NCBI GenBank assembly: GCA_012270065.1
Contig: JAAXJB010000090.1
Coordinates: forward strand, 1-64,000
Direction of reading: 5' to 3'
Length of the DNA: 64,000 nucleotides
DNA from: Rubripirellula sp.
GTDB taxonomy: Bacteria; Planctomycetota; Planctomycetia; Pirellulales; Pirellulaceae
Shown here: piece after piece, positions 2,412 through 63,648 of the stretch
How positions within the stretch are numbered: the stretch's first letter is position 1
How the letters are laid out: every line of letters starts with the position of its first letter
Notes under the pieces: model-generated
The model's database searches: none
Told to the model about the DNA's origin: nothing
Seen by the model: the letters and a program-made list of their open reading frames with translations, nothing else
Program-made: the position numbers and the translations under genes

Positions 2412-2731
2412 AATCCGGCGCCCAAGATAATCGAACGAGAAGCAACGAATGTATTCGAGCCACCGTTTCTTGAATGACTTTCGTCGTGGAGAATTATCGG
2501 TTCTGCCCTGATTGATGGAAACGCCCGTAACACGCCACAGCATCCCCCGGCGATCACAGTACCCATGGCGACATTTGCCATGGTTCAGAAGATCACACAA
2601 CCCTCGTAGTCCGCACCGACACCGTTGCTGCTCTTCTCTTGTGTCTTGTCACGTGGTTCAGCATGAATCAGGCAGGCCAAATGGACGGTCAGCATGGTCG
2701 TTCTCTCCAATGAACGCATTGGCACAAGCGC
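2412..2731. other. Intergenic stretch, no supported gene
   Basis: 320 bp between the asparaginase-family gene and the release-factor-like gene. I see no convincing gene, tRNA or terminator. One + frame (2531-2713) is open for 60 codons and ends with a hydrophobic stretch, but it has no start codon near its beginning. It may be a decayed remnant or chance. Confidence 0.4.
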
Positions 2732-3343
2732 ATGTCTGATCCGTCTTCACAACGAAATGAGCCATCAGGCCATGAGCCACCGGAAATCCCGGAACCGGAA
2801 CAACGCTTACCGGTGGTCATAGTGGAGGGCCCTCATCCAGCGTTGCTTGATCCCGATCAATTGCTGGAGAGCTGTGACTTGCGTACTCAACGCCGCAGTG
2901 GGCCGGGTGGACAACACAGAAACAAGACCAGCAGTGGTGTGTTCCTCCACCACGCACCAACCAACACGATTGCGGAAGCCACGGAAAGGCGGAGCCAGGC
3001 AGATAATCGAAGAATCGCATTGGAACGCTTGAGACTGAGGTTGGCCATTGAGGTTCGCAGTCCTTCGCCCATGGACCAGCGGAAAATCCCTCCGCAGGAA
3101 CAAGAACTGAGAACCCGCTTTCACGGTCACCCGCTGAAACTCAATGATCGCAACGTTGACAAACCAGCTGTGCTGGCGCTGCTGCTGAATGATCTACACG
3201 TTGCAGGTGGGCAACCCAGTGCATTGGGTCCTGTTTGGAAAACCTCAACCAGTTCCATTGTCCGTTTAATCAAATCATGCCCTGCTGCATTCGCGTTCCT
3301 GAACCAGATCCGGCAACATCATGAACGTCTTCCCTTGAGATGA
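2732..3343 (+). CDS. Peptide chain release factor-like protein (RF-1 domain, GGQ)
   Basis: A 203-residue protein with the RF-1 peptidyl-tRNA hydrolysis domain. The catalytic motif GPGGQ is at 57-61 (Gln61), followed by HRNKTSSGV, the usual context of the GGQ loop. It lacks the stop-codon recognition domains of RF1/RF2, so it belongs with the ArfB/YaeJ/ICT1-like short proteins that hydrolyse peptidyl-tRNA on stalled ribosomes. Unlike ArfB, the C-terminal part (about 110-203) is long and does not end in an obvious lysine/arginine-rich tail. Ribosome rescue is therefore inferred from the domain only. It stands alone, with roughly 270-320 bp of non-coding DNA on both sides. Confidence 0.85.
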   Translation: MSDPSSQRNEPSGHEPPEIPEPEQRLPVVIVEGPHPALLDPDQLLESCDLRTQRRSGPGGQHRNKTSSGVFLHHAPTNTIAEATERRSQADNRRIALERLRLRLAIEVRSPSPMDQRKIPPQEQELRTRFHGHPLKLNDRNVDKPAVLALLLNDLHVAGGQPSALGPVWKTSTSSIVRLIKSCPAAFAFLNQIRQHHERLPLR

Positions 3344-3617
3344 AGAATCCTGTTCGGCCTGCCTTGGATGTGATTCATCATCAAAAGCCGCCGGCCAGCA
3401 AAACAGGCGGCCAAAAAACACGAATTCCGGCGCCATGTGAAGTCCAGCTAGAATTGGACTAAACTAGCCATATCGAGACCCATGCATGTGAATGTTGCAT
3501 GACGTTCAGCCACCTACCAGCGCAAGATTGATGAATTTCCAGCCCAACACCTCACCTTCTGGAACCTGCAGCCGAATCAGCAACCGGTATCCTTTGCATC
3601 TTCCGGTAGTCGATCGC

Positions 3618-5876
3618 ATGATTCGTACTCTGCTGCCACTCTGCTTTTGTATTCTGCCGATGGTGGGCCAGAGTGCTGATATCTTTGTGGAAGCAGAGAG
3701 TTTTCAGCAGCGCGGAGGCTGGAAACTGGACACTCAGTTCATCCAGCAAATGGGATCACCCTATCTGCTCGCCCATGGGTTGGGACGCCCCGTCGAAGAT
3801 GCAGTCACGACAATCAATGTGACTGAAGGCGGAAATTACCGTTTGTGGGTGCGAACCAAGGACTGGGTAGCACGTTGGAAAGCCAAAACTTCCCCCGGTA
3901 AGTTCCAGTTGATCATCAATGGAAAACCAGTGGAAACAACATTCGGCACACAAGGAGTCGAATGGGACTGGCACGACGGTGGAACCGTGTCGCTGAAAAA
4001 AGGAGCCACTGAACTGCGTTTGAAAGATCTGACCGGATTTGATGGACGTTGTGACTGCATCTACCTGAGCAAAAGTACCGATCAGGCACCTCCACCTGCC
4101 AAGCAGGTGCTATCCAGCTGGCGTCGGGAAAAACTTGGACTTGCCGCAGTCCCGGAAAATCGTGGTCCTTACGACCTCGTTGTCGTTGGTGGAGGATACG
4201 CTGGAATGGGCAGCGCCCTGTCCGCGGCCCGCATGGGGTGCCGTGTTGCTCTTGTACAGGACAGACCTGTACTCGGCGGCAATGGATCCAGTGAAGTGCG
4301 GGTTTGGGCCAAGGGCAATATTCGTCGTGGCAAGTTTCCACGGATCGGAGAAATCATCGAAGAGATTGCCGACAAGGCGACCAAGTCTCCGGGAACCTAT
4401 GAAGAATTCGGTGACGAGCTGAAAGAAAAGGTAATCCGCAATGAACCCAACATTGATCTGTTGCTCAACCACCATGCGCACCGGGTCGAAATGGAAAACA
4501 ACCGCATCAGTGCCGTGCATGCTCTGGACACACGCACCGGTCAGGAAGTCAGGATCATCGGAGACTATTTTGCTGATTGCACAGGTCACGGCTGGATCGG
4601 AACGTGGGCCAAAGCCGATCTGGAAATGTCACCCGATGGCCGCATGGGAATGAGCAACATGTGGGCGTGGGATGAACTGGAGACGCCCACCACTTTCCCC
4701 GAAACGCCGTGGGCTCTTGACCTCGAAATGGCGGATTTTCCTTACCCACGTGATCATCATGGTCAGTGGTTCTGGGAAAGCGGTTTTGACAAGGATGCAA
4801 TCGGAGATGCTGAAGGAATCCGTGACTGGAATCTTCGGGCGGTATTCGGTGCATTCAACGCCATGAAAAACCGTGATGGTGCCGACAAGCACTCAAAGGC
4901 AATTCTCACGTGGGTCGCATACATCGGGGGACCCCGGGAAAGTCGCCGTCTCATGGGTGATGTCGTATTGACGGAAGAAGACATCGTAGCCAAGAAAGAT
5001 TTTCCCGATGGTTGCGTTCCAAGCACGTGGTCGATTGATCTTCACTATCCAAAAGAACAGTATGCGAAGAAATACCCAGGTAATCCGTTCATTTCAAAAG
5101 CAGTCCACGGCAGGGGAGTGGACCGATCCTATGGATATCCTGTTCCGTATCGCTGCTTCTACAGTCGCAACATCGACAATCTATTCATGGCAGGACGCTG
5201 TATCAGCGTGACACACGAAGCATTGGGAACGGTACGTGTCATGAAAACCTGTGGAATGATGGGTGAAGTGGTTGGGAAGGCTGCTTCCATTTGTGCATTG
5301 AACGATTGCCAGCCACGCGAAGTCTATGAATCCCACCTCGATGAACTCCTGACACTGCTGAAACTGCCAGGCAAGGCTTACCGCAGTACACCATCTGCCG
5401 ACATCATCATCCCCGCCGATGCACTGCCATTGGCCGGACCGCGCGGTCCGGCCAATGGAATGGATATCAGTAAGCTCGCTGGTACCGTGGTCGATGATGA
5501 AGATGCCGAGATCAAGGGTAAATGGACCAACGGAACAGGCCTGAAAAACTACGTCCAATATGGCTACAAATACGCAGCAGGCGGCACGAATGCGTCAGTA
5601 ACATTCAAAATCAAAGCTCCGAAAACAGGGCGCTATTTCATTCAGGCATTCAGCCAGGCACACCCCAACCGATCCACCAAAACACCCGTGACGGTGCGTC
5701 ATGAGAATGCCGAAAACAGCTTCACCATCAACCAGAGGCTGAAAAGCAAAGATGATGTCGTGAATCTGACAGAGCTCAATCTCAAAAAACAGGATGAAGT
5801 CATTGTGACCATCGGCACCGAAGGAGCGGACGGAAACGTGCACGTTGATGCGGTTCGCCTTTTGGAAGTCGAGTAA
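3618..5876 (+). CDS. Secreted FAD-dependent oxidoreductase with N- and C-terminal beta-sandwich-like regions
   Basis: 752 residues from the chosen ATG, which gives a clean signal peptide (MIRTLLPLCFCILPMVGQSA). The frame is open upstream to 3492, but that extension is not leader-like. Residues about 22-150 resemble a carbohydrate-binding/golvesin-like sandwich (VEAESF start). The FAD-binding Rossmann motif is VVVGGGYAGMGSA (GGGYAG 191-196), followed by PVLGGNGSSEVRVWAKG, typical of the FAD_oxidored family common in planctomycetes. The C-terminal part (about 620-752) is a second sandwich-like domain. The substrate is unknown, and a carbohydrate or glycan-derived compound is only a guess from the flanking domains. 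It stands 17 bp upstream of the flavin/Fe-S membrane protein, so the two may be co-transcribed, which would link two flavoproteins. Confidence 0.85.
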   Translation: MIRTLLPLCFCILPMVGQSADIFVEAESFQQRGGWKLDTQFIQQMGSPYLLAHGLGRPVEDAVTTINVTEGGNYRLWVRTKDWVARWKAKTSPGKFQLIINGKPVETTFGTQGVEWDWHDGGTVSLKKGATELRLKDLTGFDGRCDCIYLSKSTDQAPPPAKQVLSSWRREKLGLAAVPENRGPYDLVVVGGGYAGMGSALSAARMGCRVALVQDRPVLGGNGSSEVRVWAKGNIRRGKFPRIGEIIEEIADKATKSPGTYEEFGDELKEKVIRNEPNIDLLLNHHAHRVEMENNRISAVHALDTRTGQEVRIIGDYFADCTGHGWIGTWAKADLEMSPDGRMGMSNMWAWDELETPTTFPETPWALDLEMADFPYPRDHHGQWFWESGFDKDAIGDAEGIRDWNLRAVFGAFNAMKNRDGADKHSKAILTWVAYIGGPRESRRLMGDVVLTEEDIVAKKDFPDGCVPSTWSIDLHYPKEQYAKKYPGNPFISKAVHGRGVDRSYGYPVPYRCFYSRNIDNLFMAGRCISVTHEALGTVRVMKTCGMMGEVVGKAASICALNDCQPREVYESHLDELLTLLKLPGKAYRSTPSADIIIPADALPLAGPRGPANGMDISKLAGTVVDDEDAEIKGKWTNGTGLKNYVQYGYKYAAGGTNASVTFKIKAPKTGRYFIQAFSQAHPNRSTKTPVTVRHENAENSFTINQRLKSKDDVVNLTELNLKKQDEVIVTIGTEGADGNVHVDAVRLLEVE

Positions 5877-57903: not shown

Positions 57904-59256
57904 ATGCCTGACTCACCTCCCCATCTCCGTCCGTGGTATCAACGCATCGGCCCTGGCTTGATTACAGCTTGTGTTGTGATTGGCCCCGGAAGCATCCTGA
58001 CCAGCTCCAAGGTGGGAGCCAACGATGGATATTCGAAGCTCTGGATCGTACTCGCATCAGTCGCATTCATGCTGGTTTACATGACTCTTGGAGCCAAGCT
58101 GGGAGCGGTTGCCAAAACATCGCCGGGAAATTTAATTCGGCAGAAAGCTGGCAGGTGGCTTGCCATTATCCTTGGCTGTTGCGTCTTTTTCATTTCTGCG
58201 GCATTTCAGTCTGGCAACAACCTGGGTGTTGCTGCAGCATTCGACGCATTCATTGATTCCGACAGCATCATCACTTGTCTGGTGGTCGCGTTCAATGTGC
58301 TAGCCATTGCTTTTCTGTTCGCGTTTCAGAATCTCTATCGAGTTCTCGAACGCCTGATGATGTGTCTCGTTGCCTTGATGTTACTGAGTTTCGCAATCAA
58401 TCTGATTGTGCTCAAACCGGATCTCGGCGAACTGATCATGGGTTTCATCCCGTTTCAGGAGTCGAGTGAGGTTGCCACTACATCTGAATCCGGAATGGAC
58501 AATCTGATTGCAGTGCTCGGATTGATCGGGACAACATTTGTCATTACCGCTGCCTTCTATCAGGCATACCTCGTGCAACAAAAAGGCTGGGATGAAAATG
58601 AAGTCCGCAACGGAATCATGGACGCCCGTGTAGGAGCAATCCTCATGATGCTCATTACGGTCATGCTTGTATCAACAGCAGCTGCGGGGCTGTATACGGG
58701 ATCTGAAGTGAAACTGGATGATCCAGTGCAAGTGGCCGAGGCACTGGAACCGGGTTTTGGTGTTTTCGGAAAATACATCTTCTGTCTGGGGCTTTTCTCT
58801 GCAGCTTTCTCATCTTTTCTCGTCAACTCCATGATTGGTGGTTTCATCGTTTCGGATTGTCTTGGTTTCGGAAGCGATCCCAAGGGAAGTGCACCACGAG
58901 TGATGACCACAGTCGCACTGTTGACAGGTATGTCTGTTGCTGTGGCATGCCTGCTGATCGGATTTGATCGAACGCCAACCATCATTGCTGCTCAGGCCGT
59001 TACCGTTGTCGGTGCACCGCTAGTTGCTGGAGTTTTACTCTGGTTATCAAGTAGCAGAGATGTCATGGGATCACATGCAGCAGGCACACCGACAAAAATT
59101 TTCGCAGGCATTGGACTTGTTGTGCTGCTTGCAATCGCGGCAAACCTTGCGATCAACAAGTTGCCCGCCAGCATCAACAAGTATCTGGATGACTCAGCGG
59201 CAGAAACGACACCCGAATCGACTGGCGAGCCCCCGGTTCAGCCGACCAGTGATTGA
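57904..59256 (+). CDS. Nramp-family transporter with non-canonical metal-binding residues
   Basis: 450 residues from the ATG of MPDSPPHLRPWYQRIGPG. About 11 membrane helices are visible by hydropathy. The Nramp fold is recognised at the start (GPGLITACVVIGPG), but the metal site is altered: the canonical DPGN of TM1 is IGPGSI (26-31), with Gly and Ser in place of Asp and Asn. The TM6 MPH is replaced by Phe-Tyr-Gln in AAFYQAYLVQ (about 216-225). It therefore probably does not carry divalent iron or manganese in the usual way, and another substrate is possible. It lies 79 bp after the enolase-superfamily gene, on the same strand. Confidence 0.85.
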   Translation: MPDSPPHLRPWYQRIGPGLITACVVIGPGSILTSSKVGANDGYSKLWIVLASVAFMLVYMTLGAKLGAVAKTSPGNLIRQKAGRWLAIILGCCVFFISAAFQSGNNLGVAAAFDAFIDSDSIITCLVVAFNVLAIAFLFAFQNLYRVLERLMMCLVALMLLSFAINLIVLKPDLGELIMGFIPFQESSEVATTSESGMDNLIAVLGLIGTTFVITAAFYQAYLVQQKGWDENEVRNGIMDARVGAILMMLITVMLVSTAAAGLYTGSEVKLDDPVQVAEALEPGFGVFGKYIFCLGLFSAAFSSFLVNSMIGGFIVSDCLGFGSDPKGSAPRVMTTVALLTGMSVAVACLLIGFDRTPTIIAAQAVTVVGAPLVAGVLLWLSSSRDVMGSHAAGTPTKIFAGIGLVVLLAIAANLAINKLPASINKYLDDSAAETTPESTGEPPVQPTSD

Positions 59257-59382: not shown

Positions 59383-60132
59383 ATGTCCACTTCATCGTTC
59401 ACCGTAAAAGAAATGGAGGAATTTCGGAGAACAGGTCACATCACGCGCCGGAATCTGTTTGATCGTGCAATGATTCAATCCGTCCTCGAAGATCTGGATG
59501 TCTGGAGCAAGCAATTCATTGCCGAATTAAGTCCAGAAGATCAACAATGGTACCTGGAACACGACACGCCACACCGAAAGGCATTGCGAAAGCTTGATCA
59601 TCCCGCGTTCCATCGAGAAAGATTCCGCAGTCTGGCAACACATACCTCGCTACGCGATTTGATTCAGCAGATCATGGGTTCCCCATGCCACGTGTTTTTC
59701 AGTCAGGTTTTCATGAAACCCCCGGAAGCAGGCAGTTCCAAACCCGTCCATCAGGACAATTTCTACTTCGGTCCTGATGACCTCGACGCAACCCTGACTG
59801 TCTGGATTGCGCTCGACGATGCAACCTTGACCAATGGCTGCCTGCACTACTGCAATCAGCATCAACACACCGTACTGCCGCACTTTGCTCCTGAAAACGA
59901 ACCGTACAATCTGCAGATTGATCCAACACACCTGGACCATCTTGAATTGACACCAACTCCCATTGATAGCGGTGGTGTCTCGTTCCATCATGGCAACACA
60001 CCGCATTTTTCCAACGCAAACCACAGTACCACATCGCGCCGCGCGGTAGCGTTTCATTACCTGCGTAATGATGCAACTCTGACAGACCCGGGTTTGAATT
60101 ATGATTCGGCAATGCGAGTGGATTTTGTCTGA
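59383..60132 (+). CDS. Phytanoyl-CoA dioxygenase (PhyH) family protein
   Basis: 249 residues from MSTSSFTVKE; the frame from 59326 has no leader. The Fe(II)/2-oxoglutarate motif is KPVHQDNFYFG (His123, Asp125), with the distal His in VSFHHGNTPHFS (202 or 203) and the 2-oxoglutarate-binding Arg in TTSRRAVAFHY (219/220). PCHVFFSQVFMKPP is a typical family block. It hydroxylates an unknown substrate using oxygen and 2-oxoglutarate. It is cytoplasmic. The GNAT gene follows 70 bp later. Confidence 0.93.
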   Translation: MSTSSFTVKEMEEFRRTGHITRRNLFDRAMIQSVLEDLDVWSKQFIAELSPEDQQWYLEHDTPHRKALRKLDHPAFHRERFRSLATHTSLRDLIQQIMGSPCHVFFSQVFMKPPEAGSSKPVHQDNFYFGPDDLDATLTVWIALDDATLTNGCLHYCNQHQHTVLPHFAPENEPYNLQIDPTHLDHLELTPTPIDSGGVSFHHGNTPHFSNANHSTTSRRAVAFHYLRNDATLTDPGLNYDSAMRVDFV

Positions 60133-61074: not shown

Positions 61075-63648
61075 ATGAAGATGACTCCTCTCCTCCGAAT
61101 TTTTGCGTATCTGACCCTTCTGGTTGTGTTCACATCACAGTCGTGGGCCAACGAAGAGCAACGCAGCGTCCAACGTCCCAACATCGTTTTCATTCTGCTC
61201 GACAACGTGGGCAAGGACTGGTTGCGATGCTATGGAAGTCAGGAGAACCAGACGCCCAATATCGACAGACTCTGTAACACGGGAATGAAATTTCGCAATT
61301 TCTATGTCACACCTGTGTGTAGCACGACCCGTACCATGCTGCTGACAGGTCGATATCCATTTCGAACCGGTTGGCACACCCACCACGATTCAGCGATCTA
61401 CGGTGGCGGTTTTCTCGATTGGAACCGGGAAATCTGTTTCGCACGATTGTTGCGTGATGCGGGCTATCGGACCTGTATCTCCGGCAAATGGCAAATCAAT
61501 GATCTGTTCGATGCCCAGCAGGCGACTGCACTTGCAGATCATGGCTTTGAAGAACACTGCATCTGGCCCGAGGCCAAGCCCGGGCTCCCTGCACACAAGA
61601 AGCGTTACTGGGACCCCTATGTCATTCGCAATGGTCAGAAAATCGAAGCCGGTGGCAAATTCGGCCCTGATATCTTTACTGACCATTCAATTGACTTCAT
61701 GAAGCGCAACCGTGACAGGCCTTTTCTGATTTATCAATCTGCGATCCTGACCCACATCCCGGTCACGACCACTCCACTCAACCCCGATCCGAATGCCACT
61801 GTCCGGGAAAAGTTTGCCGGCATGGTGCGCTATGCAGACCACTTGATCGGCCGAATGGTAGGGACACTCACCGATCTGGGAATCCGTGACAACACTCTGA
61901 TCTTCATTGCTACTGACAACGGCACCGACAACGGTTCGGATCAAGGGATGGCAGAAAGCCTCGGTGGAATGCGTCATGGCCGAATCTCGGATGAGGGGAT
62001 CTACTCACTCGCCGAGCAGGGTATCAATATGCCGTTGATCGTCAATTGTCCGGGCTGGATCCGTGAGGCCTGCGAAAGTGATGCCTTACTGAACGCCGCA
62101 GATATCCTGCCGACTCTTGCCGATGTCACCGGCGCATCCATTCCCAAATCTCTTGAAATTGATGGCCTTAGCTTCGCTAACATTCTTCGCGAACAGAGCG
62201 ACAACTCGTGGACCCGACCATGGACCTTTACGCAATACGCCGAGGACCGCGTTGTTCGCGACCAAAGGTACAAACTCTACTCAAATGGAAGTTTCTTCGA
62301 CCTTGCCGTTGATCCTTCCGAACAAAGAGTGATTTCGCCCGACGCAGAGCAAAAATCCGAATCGAAGAGGCGACTGGAATTACAACGTGTTCTTGACGGA
62401 TTTCCTGAAAACAACCGTTGGCCTTGGGCGTTCCGGAGCATTTCGGCCCGCAAAGCACGTGCTGCGGCTGATGCGTCTCGCAGAGCAAAATGGATCACAA
62501 AGGACGTGATTCCACCTCCATCATTAGCATCATTCTTTGAGTGCCCAAACAACTACAGATCAAAGATGGGTGACTACCATTCACCGTTGGATTGGAAAAA
62601 TGGTTCTGTGGTGAGCACACCTCAACAGTGGCAAAAGAGACGCAAGGAAATCCTTGATACATGGCATAAGATCATGGGTCCATGGCCAGAACTGTTCACC
62701 GAACCGGCGTTTGAACAAATTGCAGTGTCACGCCGCGAAGACATCACGCAACGACAGTTGAAACTGGGAATCGGCATTGGTGGGGAAATGGTCGATGCCT
62801 TCATGTTGATCCCCGATGGCGACGGTCCATTTCCTGCAGTCGTCGTACCTTATTACGATGCCCAGACTGGGATTGGCAAAGGTATACCACTTCGAGATTT
62901 TGGCTGGCAATTGGCAAAACGTGGTTTTGTAACGCTGTCGATCGGGAAACCCAATTCAGGCGTGAACTTTGACAATCCGCGTGAAGCGGGCCACCGTGGA
63001 CAATACTTCGGAAGCGAAGAAAAGGTTGTCACAACGCAACCGTTATCAGCTCTTGCCTTCGCCGCTGCGAACGCTCACACGTTTCTGGCATCGCGACCTG
63101 AAGTCTATCCGGATCGGATCGGCATTGTCGGACATTCGTTCGGAGGCAAATGGTCACTGTTTGCATCATGTCTTCACGAAAAATTTGCATGTGCTGCCTG
63201 GTCAGACGCGGGGATTGTCTTCGACGAACGTGATCGCAGAAAAGAGAATCCGGGAGGTTCAGTGAATTACTGGGATCGGTGGTACCTCGGATTCACTTTG
63301 GGTGACCGGAATACCTCGAATCAATCACAGCGTTTTCGAAAACTACCCAGTGAAGGCGAACCGCGGACAGGATCGTACAAGGAATTAATCGAGGGAGGCC
63401 ATGATTTAGTCGAGTTGCATGCGTTGATGGCCCCGAGACCTCTGCTGGTTTCGGGTGGCACGGCTGATCGGCCCGAGCGTTGGGCGGCGCTAAATCACCT
63501 GATCGCTCTCAACAAAATGCTCGGATTCAAAAACCGTGTCGCGATGACCAATCGGGATACACACGCACCCAATGAAGAATCAAATGAACAGATCTACGAT
63601 TTTTTTGAATGGTGGCTGAAAGAAAAACCGGCCCAGACGGCTCCCTGA
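61075..63648 (+). CDS. Secreted sulfatase fused to alpha/beta hydrolase (esterase)
   Basis: 857 residues with a signal peptide (PLLRIFAYLTLLVVFTSQSWA). Residues about 33-420 are a sulfatase: RPNIVFILLDNVGKDW, the formylglycine site PVCSTTRTMLLTGR (Cys82), SGKWQ, and FIATDNGTDNG. The site is CxTxR rather than CxPxR or CxAxR. From about 495 there is an esterase of the acetyl-xylan-esterase/dienelactone-hydrolase-like type found alone in planctomycetes: YHSPLDWKNGSVVSTPQQW, GIVGHSFGGKW (nucleophile Ser688), GGTADRPERW (Asp798) and DTHAP (His830). Both catalytic sets are complete. The linker at 430-490 is basic and Ala-rich. It would remove sulfate and acyl groups from polysaccharides outside the cell. 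Confidence 0.9.
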   Translation: MKMTPLLRIFAYLTLLVVFTSQSWANEEQRSVQRPNIVFILLDNVGKDWLRCYGSQENQTPNIDRLCNTGMKFRNFYVTPVCSTTRTMLLTGRYPFRTGWHTHHDSAIYGGGFLDWNREICFARLLRDAGYRTCISGKWQINDLFDAQQATALADHGFEEHCIWPEAKPGLPAHKKRYWDPYVIRNGQKIEAGGKFGPDIFTDHSIDFMKRNRDRPFLIYQSAILTHIPVTTTPLNPDPNATVREKFAGMVRYADHLIGRMVGTLTDLGIRDNTLIFIATDNGTDNGSDQGMAESLGGMRHGRISDEGIYSLAEQGINMPLIVNCPGWIREACESDALLNAADILPTLADVTGASIPKSLEIDGLSFANILREQSDNSWTRPWTFTQYAEDRVVRDQRYKLYSNGSFFDLAVDPSEQRVISPDAEQKSESKRRLELQRVLDGFPENNRWPWAFRSISARKARAAADASRRAKWITKDVIPPPSLASFFECPNNYRSKMGDYHSPLDWKNGSVVSTPQQWQKRRKEILDTWHKIMGPWPELFTEPAFEQIAVSRREDITQRQLKLGIGIGGEMVDAFMLIPDGDGPFPAVVVPYYDAQTGIGKGIPLRDFGWQLAKRGFVTLSIGKPNSGVNFDNPREAGHRGQYFGSEEKVVTTQPLSALAFAAANAHTFLASRPEVYPDRIGIVGHSFGGKWSLFASCLHEKFACAAWSDAGIVFDERDRRKENPGGSVNYWDRWYLGFTLGDRNTSNQSQRFRKLPSEGEPRTGSYKELIEGGHDLVELHALMAPRPLLVSGGTADRPERWAALNHLIALNKMLGFKNRVAMTNRDTHAPNEESNEQIYDFFEWWLKEKPAQTAP

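Follow-up and report, generated by a model that had tools for sequence, protein, structure and literature searches.

The window analyzed here, i.e. the first 64,000 nucleotides of contig JAAXJB010000090.1 from a Rubripirellula sp. genome (GCA_012270065.1; Planctomycetota, Pirellulaceae), carries a gene in which a sulfatase-fold protein and an alpha/beta-hydrolase are read as one protein. The initial annotation had described one reading frame with two domains behind a single signal peptide, and this is borne out by one 857-codon open reading frame (ORF) with one apparent signal peptide, judged by eye (Table 1). A helix is predicted at residues 5–25 of the N-terminus, in a low-confidence region of the full-length AlphaFold model. 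The residues singled out by that annotation are also found where it placed them, i.e. Cys82 (VCSTTR), the TDNGT motif, Ser688 (GHSFGGK), Asp798, and His830. In the first half, Pfam recognizes Sulfatase (residues 35–353, 1.9e-38) and the C-terminal domain SGSH_C (residues 313–427), while its only match in the second half is a subthreshold one to BAAT_C, an alpha/beta-hydrolase family.

Table 1. Features of the fused gene, with two upstream genes; residue counts are rows of the alignments described in the text.
Feature	Positions	Strand	Remarks
Whole fused ORF	61075..63648	+	Uninterrupted; 857 aa/codons, stop included
Signal peptide, aa about 1–26	61075..61152	+	Hydrophobic N-terminus; cleavage near SWA/NE judged by eye
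Sulfatase-fold half, aa 31–455, atypical subfamily	61165..62439	+	Pfam PF00884, 1.9e-38
Asp43-Asn44, putative calcium-site pair (usual Asp-Asp)	61201..61206	+	Asn44 29/29 subfamily; Asp 19/19 outgroup
Cys82-Ser-Thr-Thr-Arg86, replaces CxPxR	61318..61332	+	Cys82, Ser83, Thr84, Arg86 29/29 subfamily
Lys138-Trp-Gln140 (GKWQ; usual GKWH)	61486..61494	+	Gln140 29/29 subfamily, 19/19 outgroup
His227, H211 equivalent, kept	61753..61755	+	29/29 subfamily, 19/19 outgroup
Asp281-Asn282, second putative calcium-site pair, kept	61915..61920	+	29/29 subfamily, 19/19 outgroup
Ile309, column of the K375-equivalent Lys	61999..62001	+	No Lys 30/30 subfamily (alignment by eye)
Junction, aa 456–485	62440..62529	+	Native C-terminus of the sulfatase (around RSISARK), then start of the esterase
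CE15-like alpha/beta-hydrolase half (predicted), aa 486–857	62530..63645	+	Profile and Foldseek matches
Ser688, nucleophile, GHSFGGK	63136..63138	+	Invariant 10/10 aligned hydrolase halves, 12/12 fused
Asp798, triad acid	63466..63468	+	Invariant 10/10 aligned hydrolase halves, 12/12 fused
His830, triad base	63562..63564	+	Invariant 10/10 aligned hydrolase halves, 12/12 fused
Nramp-family transporter	57904-59253	+	
PhyH dioxygenase	59383-60129	+	Two genes upstream of the fusion

The fusion is real and conserved. A search for the same two-domain order finds homologues of the two halves as a single frame, uninterrupted by stops, in 12 of 241 genomes of the family (window included) from four genera, and the other 11 intact fusions are 64–81% identical to the window protein. 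A thirteenth case (genome G157; our handles for genomes and loci begin with G and L) is split in two pieces at contig ends. Within a 99-genome search covering the window's own genome and its relatives, the fusion is present in G002, G005, G006, G008, G009, G011, G013, and G020, and the tally for the window's genus, with the window counted, is 9 of 22 genomes. Three further intact fusions lie outside this genus (G109, G240, and G144, from the 241 family genomes). Wider samples return few cases: the window's own genome alone among 392 genomes across the phylum, and the window's genome plus G020 among 397 genomes of the class (threshold 1e-110). The earlier statement that the two parts are usually separate proteins thus agrees with what is seen, i.e. 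many genomes have standalone relatives, and in the genomes searched the fusion occurs only in the window's family.

An assembly or frame error that joins two neighboring genes could in principle produce such an ORF, particularly given that most of the genomes concerned consist of many contigs and that six are metagenome-assembled. However, the same stop-free fusion recurs in 12 genomes, six of them separate metagenome-assembled genomes, at 64–81% identity, which excludes a frame error in the linker, and the junction itself has dN/dS values of 0–0.29 over 30 codons in five usable pairs. We take the artefact to be refuted. The hydrolase half is likewise no C-terminal fragment: its standalone relatives are whole proteins that cover the same stretch, one of them (L024) with its own hydrophobic N-terminus, and homologues lacking the catalytic triad are excluded by its presence in every aligned hydrolase half and every fused protein.

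The first half had been annotated as a complete S1-type sulfatase. Its domain length supports this, but its active site is not the canonical one, since several motifs are altered and the lysine equivalent to K375 is absent. We compared 29 rows of the subfamily to which the window protein belongs (L052, identical to L103, was left out) with 19 outgroup rows, seven more distant rows being placed in neither group. Asp43, Cys82, Arg86, Lys138, Gln140, His227, Asp281, and Asn282 are identical in all 29 subfamily rows, so that the equivalents of Lys113 and His211 (Lys138 and His227) are each present in 29 of 29. The cysteine motif of the subfamily reads CSTTR or CSTSR; at position 83, Ser in the subfamily, the outgroup has Thr (19/19), and at position 84 it has Pro in 18 of 19 rows and Ser in one. 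The lysine missing from the subfamily is present in all 18 outgroup rows that hold that stretch (alignment by eye), although L026, L088, and L089 have insertions near this column with a Lys nearby, such that a shifted Lys is possible in these three. A further difference lies at residues 107–109, which are Ala-Ile-Tyr in 29 of 29 subfamily rows vs Pro-Arg-Trp in 19 of 19 outgroup rows. Gln140 is common to both groups and is as such a trait of the wider group.

The proteins were also compared with published sulfatase patterns, with counts given here for the 12 fused proteins, 18 standalone subfamily members, 19 outgroup rows, and 34 other sulfatases from the window's own genome, in that order. 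The full catalytic pattern, which includes [CS]-x-[PA]-x-R in its PMC5066984 version, matches 0/12, 0/18, 7/19, and 22/34, and the window protein misses it at a single point, the Thr at the Pro/Ala position. The outgroup matches in only 7 of 19 cases, such that the pattern by itself is not diagnostic; the residues are. The first calcium-binding pattern (Asp13-Asp14) gives 0/12, 0/18, 18/19, and 24/34, and is a weak criterion, given that the published alignment shows Asp14 to be only 76% conserved. For the second (Asp317-Asn318), the counts are 0/12, 3/18, 8/19, and 23/34, while the ligands themselves, Asp281-Asn282, are found in 29/29. The updated PS00149 pattern (GK...W-H) matches 0/12, 0/18, 0/19, and 27/34, being missed because Gln follows GKW, as in the outgroup. 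The supplementary pattern ending in His211 matches 1/12, 17/18, 7/19, and 17/34, with His227 itself in 29/29. In the parts of PMC5066984 covered here, which reports on 4058 sulfatases, Pro53 is 87% conserved with Ala in 369 sequences and any other residue below 1%, and conservation of Asp14, Lys375, and His211 is 76%, 96%, and 99%, respectively.

By its residues, then, this half is not a standard S1 sulfatase and belongs to an atypical subfamily. Sulfatase activity is possible, because the Cys, the Arg, and the other helper residues do not vary and purifying selection acts on each half (see below).

The window's genome has 187 matches to the query; among those listed, all but the window gene and C109:1315-2007 (a match to the esterase half) correspond to the sulfatase half, and not all are separate genes. 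We inspected 35 of the 187, and CxPxR or CxAxR is found in 32. The exceptions are the window protein, the degenerate L007, and L160, which reads CCSTR in an otherwise canonical site. The genome also has 18 FGE-family matches, putative maturation enzymes, some of which pair up as pieces of a single frame. No match to the anSME family TIGR03942 was found in this genome, using a search that matches 12 of 14 control genomes (2 over the cut-off). Some tolerance at the proline position of the formylglycine signal thus seems to exist, as judged from these motifs.

Two of the sulfatase-fold proteins are likely pseudo-sulfatases: L007, from the window's own genome, has lost the Cys, the Arg, and calcium-site residues, and in L073 (G009) CVPSR is kept while calcium-site residues are gone, together with the active-site His and the pocket Lys. 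Two others, L154 and L051:935-2413 (-), have an Asp-Asn calcium site with an intact CTPSR, and L154 also lacks the pocket Lys. To our knowledge, most planctomycete sulfatases have no known substrate.

These comparisons bear on whether the sulfatase-fold half is a dead domain that binds or targets, i.e. one that directs the esterase towards a glycan that is sulfated or otherwise anionic. Three subfamily-wide departures would suit such a role (CST(T/S)R, Asn44, and the absent K375-equivalent Lys), as would the NHL, PQQ-type propeller, and BNR-like domains that related esterases carry in the same N-terminal position. However, a dead binding domain could afford to lose its catalytic residues, as L007 did and L073 did in part, whereas all 29 rows, among them standalone proteins that have no esterase to target, keep Cys82, Arg86, Lys138, His227, and three calcium ligands unchanged. 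We therefore consider a dead domain rather unlikely. That the nucleophile and its helpers are unchanged throughout, while the degenerate L007 and L073 lost several, argues instead for a hydrolase.

If it is a hydrolase, its ester may not be a sulfate. The fold belongs to the alkaline phosphatase superfamily, and an active enzyme for another ester (e.g. a phosphoester) would be consistent with a positive charge lost at the K375 position and a calcium ligand changed, with the nucleophile residue kept. The replacement of Pro-Arg-Trp with Ala-Ile-Tyr in 29 of 29 rows would also alter the anion pocket, assuming that the pocket is located there. By contrast, the closest solved relatives listed are sulfatases, and we consider this alternative improbable, more so than a dead domain.

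For the second half, a profile built from 10 esterase halves finds CE15 structures as its best matches (7nn3, 7e-18; 6hsw, 1.1e-11; 8q6s, 4.7e-11; 6ehn, 9.3e-10); acetyl xylan esterases follow in the same search, the best of them at 4.7e-5. The model of this half (mean pLDDT 76, pTM 0.84) gives the same order in Foldseek, where ranks 1–21 are glucuronoyl esterases (query TM 0.53–0.65) and acetyl xylan esterase-type structures start at rank 22. The Pfam family AXE1 matches 3 of the 10 esterase members weakly (best E 0.0023), and the window's half is not among these. The profile and the model thus indicate that the esterase half is CE15-like and closest to CE15 glucuronoyl esterases. Of the acetyl or other esters proposed by the initial annotation, acetyl is the less likely, given that the nearest solved structures are CE15 and acetyl xylan esterases are further off. 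All five CE15 proteins aligned have the Arg of their G-x-S-R-x-G-K motif, vs GHSFGGK in the query, with the Lys common to both.

How the two halves came together was addressed using one tree for each half. For the sulfatase half, 15 duplicate loci (L045-L050 and L075-L083, L076/L077 among these) were removed before alignment and tree building, and of the 66 rows, L007-L014, L073, and L087 were too short and were dropped, which left 56. The 12 fused rows form one clade (support 100/98) nested in a subfamily of 30 rows (100/99); the remaining 18 are standalone proteins, of which 12 make up a single clade that includes a contig titled Gimesia. The sulfatase subfamily is thus older than the fusion, according to this tree.

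The esterase-half tree, likewise of 56 rows, places the standalone esterases from G017 and G014 within the fused group. Support is 96/96 for the clade without G144, G240, and G157, and weaker at the inner forks (89/76 and 86/49). L087 was labelled there as belonging to no group despite an ORF with part of the sulfatase half, and with this label 3 changes of the fused state are needed. In G017 and G014, the esterase sits at the same locus with flanking neighbors conserved on both sides, but no enolase, PhyH, GNAT, or sulfatase half was detected there. The simplest reading is a single fusion, after which two species lost the sulfatase half, with only moderate support for the inner forks.

The junction suggests what was joined. 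The standalone sulfatase L051 stops shortly past RSISARR (RSISAR being conserved), and L024, a standalone esterase, has a hydrophobic N-terminus of its own; on this basis, two whole proteins appear to have been joined, with the second signal peptide gone. Across the 12 fused proteins, 11 of 30 junction positions are invariant. Eight pairs were computed for dN/dS, of which three had a saturated synonymous count in the sulfatase half (and one of these also in the esterase half). In the five usable close pairs, dN/dS is 0.061–0.118 for the sulfatase half and 0.055–0.076 for the esterase half, and these ratios are rough, given that four of these pairs have dS values close to 1 or higher. These values indicate purifying selection on both halves, i.e. 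both are maintained.

No neighboring unfused genes for the two halves, i.e. a fossil of the fusion event, were found among the loci examined. At L042 of G068, a standalone esterase relative is followed directly by a different sulfatase (2676-3986 (+)), which matches in two pieces at 24–36% identity. Among five longer esterase relatives that were scanned, the esterase is preceded by NHL repeats (L031), a PQQ-type propeller (L037), or a BNR-like domain (L041, above the Pfam cut-off); L038 has a BNR-like match below the cut-off, and L115 showed no N-terminal domain. The esterase module has thus been combined with other domains on more than one occasion.

Turning to the neighborhood, the order enolase-Nramp-PhyH-GNAT-fusion-miaA is conserved between the window and G005, G006, G009, and G020. 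None of enolase, Nramp, PhyH, GNAT, and miaA was found near the fused gene of G109, G240, or G144 (for G109, only 2.3 kb upstream could be covered). At the same locus in G019, from the same genus, Nramp, GNAT, and miaA stand together with neither half of the fusion. The neighbors of the fused gene in G144, judged by eye from their N-termini only, are of BNR/sialidase type, Gfo/Idh-type oxidoreductase, and MFS-type transporter; they would suit glycan breakdown and prove nothing. The algal glycan put forward as substrate by the initial annotation may be the target, a conjecture for which gene context offers weak hints.

The Nramp-like transporter was considered as a functional partner. Its gene stands directly before the standalone sulfatase at L051-L053, L133, and L142 (L142 and L052 being from the same genome), and directly before the esterase in G017 and G014. 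This candidate is weakened by the presence of a relative in 112 of 241 family genomes (1e-60). In 10 Nramp neighborhoods that were fetched, neither the sulfatase subfamily nor the esterase was found alongside (the G015 contig ends after GNAT, and that of G109 after Nramp), while other sulfatases of 25–36% identity occur in three of these ten stretches. The fused gene of G144 and of G240 does not stand beside the Nramp gene, each having other neighbors (in G240 they are on different contigs), and G109 is limited by its contig ends. Aligned to MntH (8e5s), the Nramp protein of the window reads GPGS where MntH has DPGN, and MPH is replaced as well, such that these usual metal-site residues seem to be absent. 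The upstream PhyH protein matches methylphosphonate hydroxylase weakly and far below the cut-off (60 bits vs 500).

We lean, with somewhat better than even confidence, towards an exported two-domain enzyme that arose by one end-to-end fusion of an atypical sulfatase-fold protein and a CE15-like serine esterase, the two acting in sequence. The event would have taken place in an ancestor within the window's bacterial family and joined two complete proteins end to end. The esterase half would form an acyl-enzyme at Ser688 and cleave a carboxylic ester on a sugar, a uronic acid ester (as in CE15) being more likely than acetyl. Most likely, the sulfatase half is still a hydrolase, with Cys82 converted to formylglycine, and the pocket for the sulfate or leaving group beside Cys82 would have been rebuilt, with Asn in the calcium site and the usual Lys gone. 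Both halves may then work in turn on one exported substrate, held together by the tether.

Several observations weigh against this. The CxPxR proline and Lys375 are both missing, with Thr being rare at the Pro position, which implies that sulfatase activity may be weak, changed, or absent. The Arg that follows Ser in CE15 is absent from the esterase half, and the full-length AlphaFold model is of low quality across the sulfatase half (mean pLDDT 62 over the whole model). In addition, G017 and G014 keep the esterase with no sulfatase half, and the tether would as such be dispensable.

The sulfatase-like branch with a changed active site is of more interest than the fusion itself; the initial annotation had taken it as standard. 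We tentatively propose that it may be a distinct branch of the sulfatase fold in which the proline, a calcium ligand, and the sulfate-binding Lys have been swapped and the nucleophile kept, maybe with noncanonical chemistry, fused to a CE15-like uronoyl esterase. A conserved branch with a changed signal, in a genome with no anSME-family match, would test the tolerance of FGE for CxTxR, and the esterase tethered to it, being CE15-like, suggests that the substrate carries both an acidic ester and a sulfate-like group, so that fewer candidates come into question. Should the sulfatase half have no activity, "sulfatase" as an automatic annotation would be mistaken for this branch.

Compared with S1 sulfatases (SulfAtlas family S1), the first half is alike in its fold, the Cys/Arg motif, Lys138, His227, Asp43, Asp281, and Asn282, and differs by CST(T/S)R, Asn44 for Asp, Gln140 for His, and the lack of the K375 Lys. 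Its best solved relative is the S1_16 kappa-carrageenan sulfatase 9fo1 (1e-35), with GALNS (4fdi) also matched, and the best five solved sulfatases aligned all have Asp at the Asn44 position, His after GKW, and the pocket Lys. The planctomycete sulfatases of the GKWQ type, i.e. the 19 outgroup rows (e.g. L044 and L057), are 35–41% identical and have GKWQ and His227 in common with it; they themselves keep Asp-Asp (19/19), Pro84 (18/19), and the pocket Lys (18/18 with the stretch), from which the window's subfamily departs. The esterase half and CE15 (7nn3, 8q6s, 6gry, OtCE15A, and MZ0003 6ehn) have G-x-S-x-x-G-K with its Lys in common, and the Asp and His near the C-terminus of 7nn3 align with those of the window protein; Phe689 stands here vs Arg in the 5 aligned CE15 proteins, and identity in the fold alignments is about 15–20%.

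Among the matches listed, we found no published report of a sulfatase-CE15 fusion or of this subfamily, with subscription journals mostly outside the coverage. A precedent from PMC8511951 is P36 of Formosa agariphila, where an S1_25 sulfatase and a GH78 rhamnosidase carry out consecutive steps. P36 resembles the window protein in combining a sulfatase domain with a second sugar-acting domain; it differs in having a glycosidase as the partner and in the demonstrated activity of its sulfatase (PMC8511951). For planctomycetes, the portions of PMC4807772 covered here give 122 and 129 sulfatase genes in two strains, and estimate 34 and 21 multidomain sulfatases in strains P1 and P2, some with esterase/lipase domains. 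These are alike by description, the text covered giving no sequences, and because such multidomain sulfatases were already published (PMC4807772), this kind of sulfatase fusion is not new.

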